NCBI GenBank assembly: GCA_019096065.1
Contig: JAGUCH010000001.1
Coordinates: 3,658,001 to 3,722,000 of the forward strand
DNA from: Paracyclopina nana
Taxonomy: Eukaryota; Arthropoda; Copepoda; Cyclopoida; Cyclopettidae
Direction of reading: 5' to 3'
DNA: 64,000 nucleotides
Shown: piece after piece, positions 11,918-21,146 of the stretch
Layout of the letters: each line of letters opens with the position of its first letter
Position numbering within the stretch: position 1 is the first letter of the stretch
Notes under the pieces: model-generated
Told to the model about the DNA's origin: nothing
Databases searched by the model: none
What the model saw: the letters and a program-made list of their open reading frames with translations, nothing else
Program-made: the position numbers and the translations under genes

Positions 11918-13987
11918 ATGGAAATTGTGCGACCATCAACCCCTAACACAGTGATATACGACTACGATCTTGGAGGAGCAGAAGTAAGCAGTAAAAAGAT
12001 GTCTGCAGACCTCAGGCCCGTATCGGGCAAGTCGTTGGCTCCGCCCCCAGCCCTGTACAACAGGCCAGGCCCAGATAAGGCCGAGGACGTACACAGCGTT
12101 GGGGGCCGAATATGGACCATCGAGGGCCACGGAGACGACGACCTCGAGAAGGATGCTTTGAGCTACGATGAAGATGAGGAAACGAGGATTCTGTTGGAAA
12201 AGGAATTCGACGACTATTACGAGGACCATGTCCATAAATCAGCCGGCCCTGTCGTTTTTGTGTCCAAAATGCTGGGAATGATCCCAGTTATCTGGACTGA
12301 GGACGAGTCTGAGAGCGAGTGCAAGTCCTACTTCAACCTCTACACATTTGTCATCTTTATTGGTACGTGTGCTCTTGAAAGCTTTCTTCACGCGATTACC
12401 CATGCAAGAATGTATTGTGCGTAAACAAAACGGGTGAAAGTAGAGGAAGGGAACTGTGAATATGCAATGCTTGAACAGAGAAGCAGTTTTCAGCCACCAG
12501 GAAAATTGCTTTTGTTGCTGCGTACTTCTGCATGGAGTGACGTTGGCACAGAAAGTAGAGGGAAAATTGCAGATGATTGTCGGGAAACACAACTTTTGCG
12601 TAATGCGCAGTTGTAGTCCGTACTTTAATTTAATTTCTGCACAGGATGGGTCGGACTTGCTGCCATTACCGGCCTTAGGATTAACAAGGTCGAGCAATGG
12701 ACTGGCTCCGTCGCTAGTACGAATGCAACAGACCCTTTGAGGTTTATTACCAAATCTAGCATGGATACATATGTGGCCTGCACTTGGGTGGCTAGCCTGG
12801 TAGCCCTTCTTTTTGGGGTCTTCAAGTGCAGATCTTTTGCTGAAGTTCTGTTTGGCCTGTCAGAAACTGACGCCCAATTAGAGCTGCAAGAGAAGCACTA
12901 CGACAAGATCAAGAGGAAGTCTCTGTACTGGATTGTTTTCTTGGGATTACTGCTCGCAGCTCATGCGGTCGCCTTCTATGTGGTCTGGAACGACTCAGTG
13001 GGATTTGACATCATGATTCTGCTGTCGGATACATTGGCGCATACCACTATTTTTGTGCTGGATTTGCAGTTTCTGCATTTGGTCATGGTGCTATGCAAAC
13101 GGTACAGAATGGTTAACAAGATTCTGCTTCACATAACAAAGGTACGAGTTACCGAGCTATTTAACCTTACGATACGACAAAGCAGCTTTTCACAGCCCTG
13201 GAAAACCTTTCGGAATGACAAGCCTTCAAATTTCGTGGTCCAGAACATTCTGCAGTACAGATTTGACCAGATTTTCGAGCCAGGCTCAGATCCGAACGGC
13301 CTTGACCTGCTAGCGAAGAAAAACGTCCCTCTGGAAAAGCTCATCAAAAATGTGGAAGAGCCCAAGATTTCTAGAGAAGAAGAGAATACGTTTATAATTC
13401 AGTTGGACATATTGAGGGGCATCCATGCAGACCTGGCTGCATTGAGTCACGAGGTCAGTCACTTGCTGGGATTCCAGATCTTGATCCATTTGATTACATC
13501 TGTCATCTTTGTGGTCATGTTTGGTTACTTCTTTGCCGCGGCCTTGATTAAGGATGAGTTTTACTGGCCTTATTTGGTCCTCTTCATTTTGCCAGCCATT
13601 CAAATCTTCTTGATAGGCCATTGGGGGCAGTGCTTGGAGCAGCAGGTAACTAAGCATCATTAACTTTTTCCTTACAAAACGTTAACCGAGAAAATAACTA
13701 GTCACGCCAACCATTCATGACGATTTGTCAAATGTCGACTATTGATGGCTCTCCAAAGCTGGAACGACAAGTTCAGAAATTAACCATTCAAATGAACCAT
13801 CAGTGTCCGACTCTTAAGGCTGCAGGATACTTCAATCTTGGAAGGAATATGATCTTAAAAGTACCCTTTCAATTAGCATTTGAGCTTTAAGACATTCTAT
13901 AAATGCATCTTACCTTTTCAGACGATTGGAGTTGCTGTTGTCTTCACCTATTTCATGGTCCAGTTTGAAAAGATCAAGATGAAATGA
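11918..13987 (+). CDS. Gustatory receptor (7tm_7 family), long N-terminus
   Basis: This is an arthropod chemoreceptor of the insect-type gustatory receptor family, which form ligand-gated cation channels in the plasma membrane. Exons are 11918-12362, 12645-13645, 13702-13860 and 13922-13987, giving 556 residues. Membrane segments begin near residue 139 and include YTFVIFIGWVGLAAITGL, TYVACTWVASLVALLFGVF, SLYWIVFLGLLLAAHAVAF, LLGFQILIHLITSVIFVVMF and WPYLVLFILPAIQIFLIG. The diagnostic end of the family is split over the last two exons: AGYFNLGRNMILK, then TIGVAVVFTYFMVQF just before the stop, comparable to the TYhhhhhQF signature. The first ~138 residues are hydrophilic and acidic, which is long for this family. 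A polyadenylation signal AATAAA lies at 14100-14105. The ligand cannot be predicted. Confidence 0.88.
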
Positions 13988-14231: not shown

Positions 14232-17200
14232 ATGGCAAATTTGATTCAAAATCCGCAGCAATTTCTGGCGGCCAGAAAAGCTTGGAATGGCAAAATCATT
14301 TTTGCCAAGTGCTTGGTGCTACTATTCCTCAATATCAGCTTGGTCATGCTCGGAGGATTCCTATTTCAGTTCTTGGAAAGCTCTGCAGAATCCAGCCACA
14401 AATGTGGTGAGTGACTTATTAGGGAAAAAAGGCGCTCCATTTGTACTTGCACAGTCGGCAACTTAGCAAGTATAGGGCTGCTGGTAAGCACATATATGGC
14501 ATAATGTAAGTACATCTGCTGTATGACAATACCCTAAATACCACTGCAAGTGGCTCTTAATGGCTCTGACGAACTTTTATGGCTGACTTTTTAAAATTAC
14601 CACAACCTGGCAAGAATTGGAGCTACCAACTGGGGCATGCGCTGCGAGCCGCAGTTAGAAATTACTTTTCAAGTCTGCTCATCACTTTGAATAATTGGGT
14701 TTCCCCCTTTTGCCTTAGGTGTGAAACGTCTTCAACGCAACTTTATAGAAAGTCTTTGGGCAGAATCCCTTGTTTCGGACGAGCTGTCATGGAAGAGCTC
14801 AGCTCGCCGAAAACTAAGTGACTTTGAAAACCAGCTGTATGAGGCGGTCGACGCAGGTGTCAATTCCAATTCAGAACACATGACTTGGAATTTTGCCAAC
14901 TCAGCCATCCATTCCATTTCCATGGCCACAACCATAGGTACTGCTTTCAAATTGGCTGTGTAAATTAATTCGTAGCTATTTAAAAGGGCCTAGAAGGCTT
15001 AAAAGTGAGGTCACTCCCATGGCCATGGCAGTTCGTGCCATAATCCAGGCAACTTGGAACTTAATAACTCTTACTTTCAGGGTTCGACCATTTAATGAAC
15101 ACATCCCAGACTGGCCGATTCATCAGCGTCCTTTTCTCCCTACTGGGCTCTCCTCTCTTTTTTTCTTTGGCCCTCGAGGTCGTAAATGGTCTCATTGGCT
15201 TCTCGCGACCACTCAGGGTGATTAAACATGACCATTTGTCTAATTGTTTCACATAGCACAATGGCTCTCAAGAGAGAAATCTTTTCTAGGTTTTATGGTA
15301 CATTTGCTGACCAGCCAGGACAACAGAGCAATTAAGAAAGCTATGAATTTTCCCTTGATACATTTGGACTAGATTCTAGATTCTTCTAGAAAAAAAGAGA
15401 CTTCGTTGCCAAGCTTTACTCACTCCCAAGCGATGATTCAATTCTTATATGCGGTGTACTAACCGCCATGAGCCAAATAGCGTTAAACTATGAAATTGAG
15501 CAAGGCTCCGTAAATAAGGAGCCAACAGCACAGCTATAACGAATCAGCTAGATACGACAACAAACTGCTTTCAATAATCATGGCTCCTTCATTTTTTGGG
15601 AGCTCTAGCATTTACTTCTTCTATAATATACAGCCCGATTCATACTGCATTTACACAATCTATACTTTTCTGAATATATGAGCATCAAGGGTTGAAATTA
15701 AAGCTTGAATTGCTGCTGTTGTCCTATAAATGACAAAATAGGAGCATACAAGAAGAAGAAAAGGAGACCGTAATTTCATCGCTCTGGAGAGCTTTTGGCT
15801 GCCTTATTCTCCTATTTGTCTTTATGTTTGCCACCACGCTTACGTATTCGACAATTTTCCAATGGAGCCCCACGAATTCCTTCTACTTTGTGGCCACAAC
15901 CACTCTTACCACCGGAAATATCAGAGAAATCGTTCCTGAGGTAAGTGGGTTTTTCAGCAGTACCAAAGCATACAATTTCGCAAGACATTGAAAATATAGT
16001 TGGCAAAAAGATGCTTACCAGTTAAAAAAGTCCATGTAATTTAGTCTTTTCACTGTTGAGGGCGACACACTAGTTAACACGCTTTTGCTCGACTTCGGAA
16101 AATTCCTAATTGATCTTGGTAAACATTGATCGAGAAGCGAAATTGAACAAAACTACATAACTAACATTCAAGGCAGATTTGGCTGACGAGGCTGGTGTAG
16201 GTACTCGGTTGTAAACAAGGAATGTTTTTAAGCTACCAGTGAAAGAACTCGTCAAATCACAACAGCTCTAAGAAAAAGCCACTTTAATGAAGCAAAAATA
16301 AAATTGCTTTCGGTCACACTTTCAAATTCCGTATTGGCAATAACTCGTAGTCTCGTAGTAGTTACTCTCAGCTGAGTCAGCTATCAGGGCTCAGCAGTAG
16401 AGGCGGCAATAGAACTAAGTGCCATTTGCCAGCTTTCGGCCAGTGCGAATCAGTGGAAGAGAAAATTGAAAAGGAATCCTCTGAAATTGGTAAGGCTATT
16501 TTCAGCAACTGGCTGCACATACGACCCTAAGAGATTTTGAGAGTAATTTCGCCTCGCTGTTTTTCCCTCGTAAAATATGAGGTGCATCTTTGGAATCGAA
16601 ATTGCTTTTTTTACTGAGGAAACTTCATTTCCGGGCTCAGCTGAGACCCAAAATATGCTCGAGGGCTCTGGAAAAGGCTAAAAAGGATGTTTAACTTGGG
16701 TTTTCATGGCTCTCAAAGTAATTTGCAGTGACAGCAAACAAATTGTCAGCAATTGAGAATCTGAGAAACTCTTGGTACAGGCTGGAAGAAATATAGCTTT
16801 GCAGTATTCCACTCAATCCCTGTAGGCCTAGCACAATTTCCTTTGTTTTTACTCCGGCCCAACATCCTTGCAGCTATTGTGGCTGTATTTTGGTGGGCAA
16901 AGAGATATTTCTCTAGCTTACGTTGGTAGATAAAAAAGCGACTAGTCCTGAAAATAACTGTAATAATAATGTCCGTGAACAATGTTGTTTGTAAACCTAC
17001 TTTCGACGGTTGAGTCCTCATTATTCCCTGGAAGCAATCAAATTGCTTTCTAGATTTTGGCCAATAGGTATTGACTGCCAAGTTTGCTCCAGTAAAAAAT
17101 CACATAATTGCCTATTAATTGTACCGCACAACTGCGAAAAATATGAGTTGTCGTGCATTACATATTAAATCAGCAAATGAAAAAAAGTAAAGGCAATTAG

Positions 17201-18204
17201 TGAAGAAAAAAGCAATACTTCTTTCGACTACGTAATTAATGTATAGTAATAACAAAAAAACGTTTTATTAAGCTAAATTGTATGGTCATAAAACACATGC
17301 TTGGGCCAAGCAATACAATTTAGGGACTTCATGCATTTCGTCTCCGATTGATGTAAAGTACTTCATTTTATGGGCTTTTATGAGACAGCTCGAATGTGGC
17401 CTTAAAAAGGACTCGTCTAGGTTGTGTCTGAGATCAATGATTCATGACTTGGTCTTCTTACATAAGTAAGGCCTGAACCATCGAACCATGCGGCCCTTTT
17501 TCCTCAGGAACTTGCTTCTTCTAAGCATAGAGACCCCTGATATTTTGACAACTTTTTTGTTATTCCAGGATCCTGCCATATTCCTGTGCGTCCTTGGCTT
17601 TCACCTGTTTCCTGGATTTGTTCTCTATTGTCTGTACCAAGTGTCGGTCGTGGTAAGTTATAAACATGAATAATATCAGCCAATGCTTGGTAGCATGCTT
17701 AAAGCTAAGCCAATACTTTGGCAGATGATAAATATTGTTACATGGTGGCTGAACGCTTCTTTGTGCTTTGTAAAGGCTATAGTCCACTCGTGCAAATCTT
17801 CGCTATTCAATGACCTTTGCGTGTTGCTACCTTAATAGCTCTATTTCTTGTTACTTGTACCTCAAGTTCATGAATTATTTTTGAGTCAAGAGTAACAATC
17901 AGACTGTTCGATCTTTCGTGATTGGTAACAACTGCTTTCATTGTTTCTTGTTCTAAATGCAATCGAATAATTATTCTAGAGCATGCACCTGGTTATTGTG
18001 ATGATATAACTGCTATAAGTACGTACTCGCATCATGGTACATTGAAGGAGAGATGTTACGCAATTTCTTTATTGTCTGTGTCTGAATCTCACGCCAGTTT
18101 TTCTCCCTTTTTTTGGCTTTGTTTCTTCTTCGTAGAATTTGATCCAACGTTTGTTGGAAGAGATGCTGGAAGGGAAGATAAGCAATGGAGCGAGGACATC
18201 ATAG
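14232..18204 (+). CDS. Two-pore-domain potassium channel-like protein with altered filters
   Basis: The architecture is that of a K2P channel subunit (M1-P1-M2-M3-P2-M4). Proposed exons are 14232-14406, 14719-14937, 15081-15217, 15390-15509, 15764-15940, 17569-17652 and 18136-18204, giving about 326 residues; the 15509/15764 junction is the least certain. M1 is LVLLFLNISLVMLGGFLF followed by FLE. P1 is MTWNFANSAIHSISMATTIG with GFDH after the intron, and the intron sits in the first filter glycine as in many K2P genes. M2 contains the family LLG.PL motif. M3 is GCLILLFVFMFATTLTYS, P2 is FYFVATTTLTTGNIRE, and M4 is FLCVLGFHLFPGFVLYCLY. Both filters depart from GYG/GFG: GFD in P1 and GNI in P2. 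Conductance is therefore doubtful. It may be a regulatory or non-conducting subunit, or a decaying gene, although no stop or frameshift is seen. Confidence 0.8.
15941..17568 (+). other. Long intron of the K2P-like gene
   Basis: This 1.6 kb lies between a strong GTAAGT donor at 15941 and the acceptor TTCCAG at 17563-17568. I see no supported exon or RNA in it. It is much longer than the other introns of the gene. Confidence 0.5.
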
Positions 18205-21146
18205 TAGCTATGAAACTTTTTTATTCTGTATTTTCCAGCAATGCTAGTAAAGGTAGAGATGTCAGCGGAAATAAATGTATGGATGTTAAGCATTTTGGAC
18301 TATGACTTTTTGTACTTTGTATCCCTCAGCGTTGCGCCTCAAACTTATTCTTGATCAGACTTTACAGAATTGTTCGAATTATTCTTGGGCTTACATTGAA
18401 ATGAATTTGGTCTACCTTAATGGTGTGCAAAATGCATTCCAAGTGAGGCTGGTCAAGTAATTTTGATGGTGGGTTCTGTTTTAGATGGAGCGCATAATGC
18501 AACTGCAGAAAATGCCGCAATCTCACTAGAACAGATCAAAGCAAGGCCTCAATTAAGACTTGGAGTACGCACATGGTCCAAATGTTGCTGTAGTTAGTAC
18601 AGTAGTTATTCAACTACGTGATTTTCTTGTGAGCACCTAGCATATCGAAATTTTCACTTATCCAGGAAGAAGTTTTCGTTGTGGGTTTCTAGCAGGATCG
18701 CATATTTTCAGCATCTTTTCAAAACTATCTATATCACAGATCGATTATTTTATGTAGAGTATCTTCAATAGTTTTCGATACACATCCTGCGTCGTGAAAC
18801 ATTATAGGCTTGTTTAGAAGAGGGATGAGAGTTTGTTGTACGTAGCGCTGAGATCAAAGGCTTTCCTGAAACACGGAAAAACATGGCATAATTAACACAT
18901 AATAAAAAAATCCTGTCTGCAAATTAGCTCGCCATTGAAGCCTCATAAAGTGGAATATTGTTTTGATGCGCTAACAAAGAGGCAGCCTAGCAGTAGAGTA
19001 GCAAATGTACGCTTGAAGAATGCATAATGATATGGAACCGATGTTCTACTACATCCCTTTGGGTGCATCAATGCAGTTACCACCAAGCTTTTCTCCTTCG
19101 TACAATATTCTTGGAACGTCGGCATGTTTTCTTTAGGCAAACATCCGTGCCGATAAACAGTGTGTACAAATCACCCATAAACCACGTTATTTATCATCTA
19201 TCAAGAGAGAAAAGGAGTATTCCTAAAAAAAGGTACCAACTCCCTTTGCGTGAAAATGAAAAGGTTCCTACTAACGTGTGTTCGCTTTGAGATACTTAAA
19301 ACATGCCTTTCTCCGATGAAGCCAGTGAAGATGATCAATCGCAGCCGAGTGCCAATTATCAAAATTAATGGATTATGCTTTCTGTTAAGGTGCACAAACT
19401 TCATTCAGCAGCTACCAAGCCAACTTCCAAGCTATAACTAACGTTGCCCTGCTTGCCAACAGTAAACAAATAAAGAGTCCAGATGGCCCAATAAAACTCA
19501 ATTTTATCAACTTTTGCTGGCCGACTAGTCGATGAAGCTTTTTTTGCTTTTTCTTCCGAAGAATATAAAAGACCTGGCGCTAGCAAACAGATTTTATTTG
19601 ATCGATTCGATTGCAGCCTTAAGTAGCACTTGTCAAGTCATTGCATTGGTAGCACATATTCGGTAGTTGCTTTGTTGTAGATCTCGAAAGGTGCTTGCCA
19701 AAGGCTTATTTATCCATTGAAGCAAGTGCAAGTCGGTGCAGTAAACACTAGTGCTTTTTCCACAAGTCTTTCCTCTCATTGCCAGATTCAACTGTAGGAC
19801 ATCTCGAGGGAGCTTCCGCTCACCATGTCATGATAGCAAGAGATATTTTTCCTTTTCGAATCATAAACGAATAGTAAAGTACTATTGCTATAGCACTCCT
19901 AAAACAATTGATTCCTTTGCTGCTTTATTCCAAATTATAATGTGAGAAAAAGTGACTCTCATTAGGTAATGCATACCAAGGAATCAATTACCTACTTGCT
20001 TGGTCTGGTGATTTGCGATAGCATTTATGGACGAACTGCTTATTTTAGAAAATCTCTATTCACTTCTTCATGAGGAAAAATGCATCAGAATTCGGAACTA
20101 ATCCAAACTGAGATGGCTCTGAAGAGTTATCTGCAAAACTTTGACAAAATATTGCACTCAGCTGATGATGTTTTGCTTGTTTTGCTGCTCCGCGTCGTAA
20201 TGTTCAGATGTGCAGCGAGGGAGAGCAGCTGAATCGGGCGCAGTTTGCCTCAGACGTGCCATTATGATAAGCTTCATTTCCTCGTATTGTTGTACAATAT
20301 GAATGTGGTATGGTGCAGACATCTCCACCCAGCAAGACTCAGTTTTGCTAAACAAACATCCCAAGGGCATTGAAAGTTAGAAAGCCAAGAGAATCTCCGT
20401 GTGTTGGACACAATTGTCCGTAATAGAATTACATATCGTAAACGTTGATGGCTCTCGCCATAAATATTTAATTTAATAAGTGCCGCCTTTATAAGTAAGG
20501 GCTCTCCTTGTTCTTGATTTCTAGTGAAAGTAAAGAACTCTATATTCCAGCTGCATTTTCTTGCATTGTGGTGCGAACAAATCCATCAGTTCACTTTCGA
20601 AATTGGATTGCAAAATAAATGCACTTATGAGGAATCTAATTTTTTAGCAAGCTCCTTTTTGCCGTTCTCCTCTATCTTTTATCGGACCGAGCGAAAAAGT
20701 TCTGTCCATTTTCGTTGCCTCTGGCCAAATTTATGCTCCATAAAAAGCCACGAAGGCTTTTTAGTTTTAAACCAATACCACTAGTTTACTGCTTCAGCCC
20801 TTCTAGACTGCATTTTATGACTCCATGCAGCCATTTCGTTGCATGATCCGTTACGGACTCGCAGATCCCAAAAGATGTGCAAGTCATTACCTTGACCAAA
20901 CACCATAAGCAAATGCATAATCACTATGTACATTGACTTTTGATGAGAAGAGAATTCTCATTTGGCTGCCATGCTGGAACATCCATGCACACTATATACC
21001 AACACACCATACATAAAGGCGGTGTAGTTCTGGGGTGACAGATGAATTACTGCTACTGCCTTCACAACTCGAGCCACAACTTTCGCAATTCATTACAATT
21101 ATACGCGCGCTCCTAATTGCGTACACGAGAAGATGAGTACTCACTT
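18205..21146. other. Gene-free stretch
   Basis: This 2.9 kb of AT-rich DNA contains only short frames without recognisable domains. The left end presumably holds the 3' UTR of the K2P-like gene. I see no repeat arms or RNA gene that I can support. Confidence 0.4.

Follow-up and report, generated by a model that had tools for sequence, protein, structure and literature searches.

Introduction

Few traits of K+ channels are as conserved as the glycine signature of the selectivity filter. Within the K2P family, TREK-1 and TRAAK (KCNK2 and KCNK4) have canonical K+ filters and conduct, UNC-58 is a sodium-permeable nematode member, and KCNK7 carries a changed signature in the second loop (GLE) with a normal first loop. 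KCNK7, KCNK12 and KCNK15 have been called silent (PMC8616229). On its own TASK-5 is silent; it forms heterodimers with TASK-1 and TASK-3 and lowers TASK surface expression. Its common filter variant G95E, which turns GYG into EYG, is dominant-negative, and co-expressing mutants with a defective filter is described as a common way to probe for K2P heteromers (PMC11364637). A change of the first-filter glycine in TWK-2, G181E, is described as a potential loss-of-function allele (PMC9049526), and in another family, as exemplified by NirBac, pore loops resembling those of K+ channels can lack selectivity (PMC4607889). In the literature searched, in part for other questions and with few subscription journals, no K2P turned up in the portions available that lacks the signature in both loops of its reference sequence, and a targeted search for altered-filter K2Ps in arthropods or crustaceans returned nothing on point in the material accessible. 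Here we describe such a gene in a 64-kb stretch of DNA (G000:C1:3658001-3722000, hereafter the window) of an arthropod genome of 92 Mb in 10 contigs.

Results

A six-exon gene with the K2P frame

The K2P-like gene consists of six exons spanning 14232-18204 on the forward strand, encoding 286 codons in a stop-free frame, with GT-AG boundaries at all introns. The first-pass annotation had placed it at 14719-15940, an interval that holds exons 2-4 and with them the M1-P1 linker, P1, M2, M3 and P2, but leaves M1, M4 and the stop codon outside. Its claim of open frames is borne out by six exons that join in phase, and the four-helix, two-loop frame it described is found in the whole six-exon model, where hydrophobic segments occupy all of the M1-M4 places. 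Exon 1 (14232-14406, +) contains the start codon, the N-terminus, M1 (IIFAKCLVLLFLNISLVML, with a hydrophobic segment at residues 22-40) and the beginning of the extracellular M1-P1 linker, and ends in phase 1 at a GTGAGT donor. Exon 2 (14719-14937, +) carries the remainder of this linker (the putative cap region, FIESLWAESL...SW) and then pore helix 1 as far as TTI, ending after base 1 of the codon for the filter glycine. The linker is long, and by eye its SLW motif resembles KLWEIT and QMWSIT of two other K2Ps of the same genome (L050 and L049, respectively). Exon 3 (15081-15217, +; donor GTGATT) supplies the remainder of filter 1, followed by M2 with a G-x-P motif (LLGSPLF), while exon 4 (15764-15940, +) encodes M3, pore helix 2 and filter 2. 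Exon 4 alone scores 17.2 bits (E 0.36) against PF07885; its acceptor at 15764 is the phase-compatible choice and the least sure junction of the model, and touches neither filter. M4 (IFLCVLGFHLFPGFVLYCL) lies in exon 5 (17569-17652, +), and exon 6 (18136-18204, +) encodes a short C-terminal tail, NLIQRLLEEMLEGKISNGARTS, closed by a TAG stop at 18202-18204. A possible poly(A) signal, AATAAA, at 18270-18275 (+), identified as a motif match only, begins 66 bases past the end of the stop.

At 1628 bases, the intron after P2 (15941-17568) far exceeds the other introns of the gene in length, and it contains no GxG filter triplet on the sense strand. Directly upstream on the same strand lies a 7tm_7 chemosensory receptor-type gene (12629-13987, +), the last exon of which, placed by eye, ends approximately 245 bases before the K2P-like start codon. 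A receptor gene of this type is consistent with an arthropod. Rfam at the gathering threshold gave no matches over the 64-kb window. As to the species, a COX1 family search gave no match, and comparing a neighbouring cathepsin L with solved structures was of no help.

Relationship to K2P channels

Pfam Ion_trans_2 matches the window protein in two stretches (E 1.5e-11), and the best solved relatives are the K2P members 2 and 4, TREK-1 and TRAAK (E about 1e-8, best 6.7e-9), to which the protein can be aligned through M1-P1-M2-M3-P2. With a profile built from 21 normal K2Ps of its own genome, the protein scores 52.8 bits, compared with 9.5 for the best of 1000 shuffled copies in which residues were permuted within 12-residue blocks. 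These matches support the K2P ancestry that had been proposed for the gene, which presents its segments in the order M1-P1-M2-M3-P2-M4. No further domain was found above the Pfam cut-off; below it, Lysyl_oxidase (E 0.13) and PDR_CDR (E 1.2) were listed.

For comparison we compiled 24 K2P genes (the window gene and 23 others), starting from the 69 matches to PF07885 with E <= 0.001. This number is a lower bound, since the other matches, for the most part single hits, were left unread. Locus L053 and the stretches L066/L067 and L068 were judged non-K2P, the latter two by sequence, and are excluded. The compiled set lacks pore helix 1 for L055 and L061-L063, and the P1 side is partial for L042, L046, L051, L052 and L059. 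The P1 intron of the window gene splits the codon of the first filter glycine after base 1 (phase 1), and the same place and phase are found in 16 of the 23 other compiled K2Ps. Of these 16, 12 were read on each side of the intron, and L055 and L061-L063 on its acceptor side alone; in the remaining seven the frame runs through this site. The earlier claim of a conserved intron position therefore holds for the P1 intron. By its similarity and architecture, the window gene is a K2P by descent, and probably a real, fast-evolving gene.

Both filters lack the K+ signature

P1 of the window protein reads MATTIG followed by FDHLMNTSQTGR, and P2 reads FYFVATTTLTTGNIREIVPE. The altered readings on which the first-pass annotation was built, TTIGFD in P1 and LTTGNIR in P2, are confirmed by the gene model: the former lies in an open frame with GT-AG splice sites, and the latter, which continues as LTTGNIRE where TTIGFGD is expected, in an open frame within one exon. 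In P1, TTIG-F-D-H stands against TTIG-Y-G-H of several relatives, so that Tyr is replaced by Phe and the second Gly by Asp. Against normal K2Ps from this genome, which have GYGH or GYGN here, the loop aligns without gaps (MAFFT). In P2, TLTT-G-N-I-R-E-I-V-P stands against TLTT-I-G-F-G-D-x-V-P of relatives, with one extra residue between FYF and VP relative to other K2Ps. Comparison of the codons GGA AAT ATC AGA GAA ATC GTT CCT with the relatives' GGN TTY GGN GAY NNN GTN CCN or alike gives Phe to Ile, second Gly to Arg and Asp to Glu. The Asp codon of P1 (GAC) is one base from GGC, and the Arg codon of P2 (AGA) is likewise one G-to-A change from a glycine codon.

The placement of the additional P2 residue depends on the alignment. 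MAFFT with 23 sequences and HMMER both place it in the pore helix, with TLTT aligned and no P2 glycine remaining (Ile to Gly, Gly to Asn, Phe to Ile, Gly to Arg); MAFFT with eight sequences places it after the glycine, in which case the first glycine is retained. In all three alignments the second P2 glycine is aligned with Arg. It had been proposed that both loops keep the first glycine and lose the second. The second is indeed gone from both, but retention of the first is safe for P1 only, because in P2 it depends on where the one-residue insertion is placed. In the 21 normal K2Ps compiled from this genome, neither glycine varies in either loop. The K+ signature G-Y/F/L-G is absent from P1 (GFD) and from P2 (GNIR or NIR by register), which supports its proposed loss from both filters. 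Because the signature fails in both loops, the sequence indicates that the window gene should be kept out of the class of K2P potassium channels.

Alternative exons capable of restoring GYG, GFG or GLG were looked for at the locus, and none of the sense-strand frames over 14407-18500 contains a GGN-(TAY/TTY/YTN)-GGN triplet. The sole filter-like motif in a six-frame search of the whole window (37185, +) lies 15 residues past an in-frame stop and was taken as chance. Just past the altered filter 1, residues 138-140 (exon 3) read NTS, a possible N-glycosylation sequon, which would be located at the outer mouth of the pore; relatives mostly have proline there.

Constraint on the window gene

A protein search of the same genome with E up to 10 gave no close paralogues: the 10 matches consist of six in the gene's own region and four weak matches to other K2Ps (best E 8.3e-5). 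No relatives of the window gene were found in the viral_contigs scan. The maximum likelihood end branch of the gene is the longest of the 24 K2Ps, at 2.65 changes per column compared with a median of 0.54. Of the conserved positions, it retains 8 of 15 in the P1 region and 6 of 13 in the P2 region, below all 21 normal K2Ps, whose minima are 8 of 11 (L055) for P1 and 8 of 14 (L058) for P2. Judged from these positions, relaxation in the window gene extends beyond the filter.

We simulated neutral evolution of the open frame (2000 runs per level, substitutions only, without indels), and the frame stayed open in 6.4% of runs at 0.1, 1.5% at 0.15 and 0.05% at 0.3 substitutions per site. That the frame is open despite the longest branch speaks against long decay, but not against recent silencing. 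The codon-usage score of the gene, 0.073, lies above an intron-type background (mean -0.108, maximum 0.010 of 1000). This gives no support for coding, because wrong and reverse frames score about equal or higher (0.059 and -0.004 for the other forward frames; 0.155, 0.125 and 0.012 for the reverse frames).

Altered filters elsewhere in the genome

Two further K2Ps in the compiled set have non-canonical signatures in both loops. L050 (G000:C4:6798403-6799342, -) has TTTG-N-G as its P1 signature and TTVG-V-V-D as its P2 signature, and L064/L065 (G000:C6:59164-60874, +) reads TTVG-N-G and WTIG-V-V-D. Over 256 codons they share 66% identity, with dN 0.25 and dS 0.83 (NG86). The resulting dN/dS is 0.30 over these 256 codons (bootstrap 0.19-0.43), and dS exceeded dN in all 300 resamples. 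At least one altered-filter K2P lineage is thus under purifying selection, the ratio applying to the whole 256 codons and not to the filter residues alone, and K2Ps without an intact filter are therefore maintained in this genome. The pair shares with the window gene, besides altered signatures in both loops, the place of the filter intron and open frames in the parts read. It differs in keeping two P1 glycines, and L050 is only approximately 25% identical to the window gene. L050 lies approximately 10 kb from a normal K2P, L049.

In a tree that includes the filter columns, the window gene joins the L050 pair with support of 83/87; without the filter columns it does so weakly (79/83, unstarred). 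Neither of two tested topologies was rejected, one with the window gene inside a clade of the L050 pair and six normal K2Ps (p-AU 0.431), the other with this clade excluding the window gene (p-AU 0.327). Long-branch attraction may explain the grouping. On these trees the altered filters of the window gene and the L050 pair may have arisen either once or repeatedly, neither tested clade being rejected.

Other deviations were seen around otherwise regular filters. L051 (G000:C3:7596049-7596981, -) has GYG and GFG, preceded by TMIG in P1 and by GKIG in P2, the lysine of which occupies the place of the conserved pore threonine. The related K2Ps L052 (G000:C3:3409853-3410236, -) and L059 (C4:1457524-1458379, -) have leucine for the P1 threonine before Ile-Gly (ALIGYG and TLIGYG); L060, a relative of both, has TTIG. 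L053 (G000:C2:460082-460610, -) contains two similar pore exons, MSTVGYGDIVC and MSTVGYGDIYC, approximately 250 bases apart. This locus was dropped as a non-K2P. The two look like alternative pore exons of one channel gene, possibly of BK type.

Discussion

Because both of the K+-selecting stretches are altered, the window gene is probably a silent partner subunit rather than a K+ channel. Our leading interpretation, held with about even confidence and built on analogy with known K2Ps, is that it would dimerise with a normal K2P and, like TASK-5, reduce the surface number or the current of that partner, without itself conducting. The first-pass annotation's alternatives, a silent subunit or a channel of new selectivity, are both consistent with the sequence observed. 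A homodimer with both loops changed would lack the usual K+ site and would not be expected to form a K+-selective pore. If the P2 insertion lies in the pore helix, Asp of P1 and Arg of P2 would stand at one level and alternate around the filter of the dimer; in this one of the two registers, the alternating acidic and basic side chains would probably plug or close it. The altered-filter K2Ps maintained in this genome, as seen in the L050 pair, are counted in favour of a silent subunit. We put forward more tentatively, as a proposal we think rather unlikely, that this arthropod maintains a standing class of filter-less K2P-derived subunits, comprising the window gene (GFD/NIR) and the GNG/GVVD pair, which would have lost the filter once or repeatedly and would act as non-K+ or pore-plugged partners of K2Ps, with an Asp/Arg charge-paired plug in the case of the window gene.

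The open frame and the long branch can also be read in terms of a recently silenced or decaying K2P copy, open by chance, in which relaxed constraint let the filter go. We consider this unlikely, if a serious contender. The longest branch of the 24 K2Ps, the lowest retention of conserved positions, outside the filter too, and a codon signal that is not frame-specific all fit decay, yet the six in-phase exons with GT-AG sites, the four membrane segments and the stop-free reading speak against it, and at 0.15 or more neutral substitutions per site such a frame would seldom stay open. The same long branch, together with a kept fold, a lost filter and a short tail, would suit a non-channel K2P homologue (a membrane scaffold, trafficking chaperone or receptor) acting without K2P partners, but with no further domain at the Pfam cut-off and nothing that indicates another partner we find this quite improbable.

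A conducting channel of new selectivity, for non-selective cations or another ion, on the K2P frame is a doubtful prospect to which we give slightly less credence still. The P1 TTIG and the helix frame are retained, and the non-selective pore loops of NirBac (PMC4607889) offer a precedent in another family. Against this, the charges of Asp and Arg in place of the second glycines, combined with the P2 insertion, would make a continuous ion path unlikely, and the accessible portions of the literature searched yielded no K2P that conducts with such changes in both loops. That the odd filters are created by base errors of the assembly or by a wrong exon model is very improbable: while each second-glycine change could be a single G-to-A difference and the exon 4 acceptor is uncertain, several more residues differ in both loops, P2 lies within a single exon, the P1 junction is the one used by most relatives, and an alternative normal exon was not found on the sense strand of 14407-18500.

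The window gene is a natural test of what the K2P frame can do without its filter. Together with the altered-filter pair under purifying selection, it lets one test for lasting K2P roles without conduction, or with another ion.

Among described K2Ps, KCNK7 (K2P7.1), called silent (PMC8616229), is like the window gene in being a K2P without proven K+ conductance. It is a vertebrate gene of the TWIK group. TASK-5 (KCNK15) likewise has the K2P frame and is silent on its own, as the window gene is predicted to be. The wild-type filter named in the TASK-5 report (PMC11364637) is GYG, whereas the window gene is altered in both loops of the reference sequence, and the heterodimer described for TASK-5 is, for the window gene, a proposed one.
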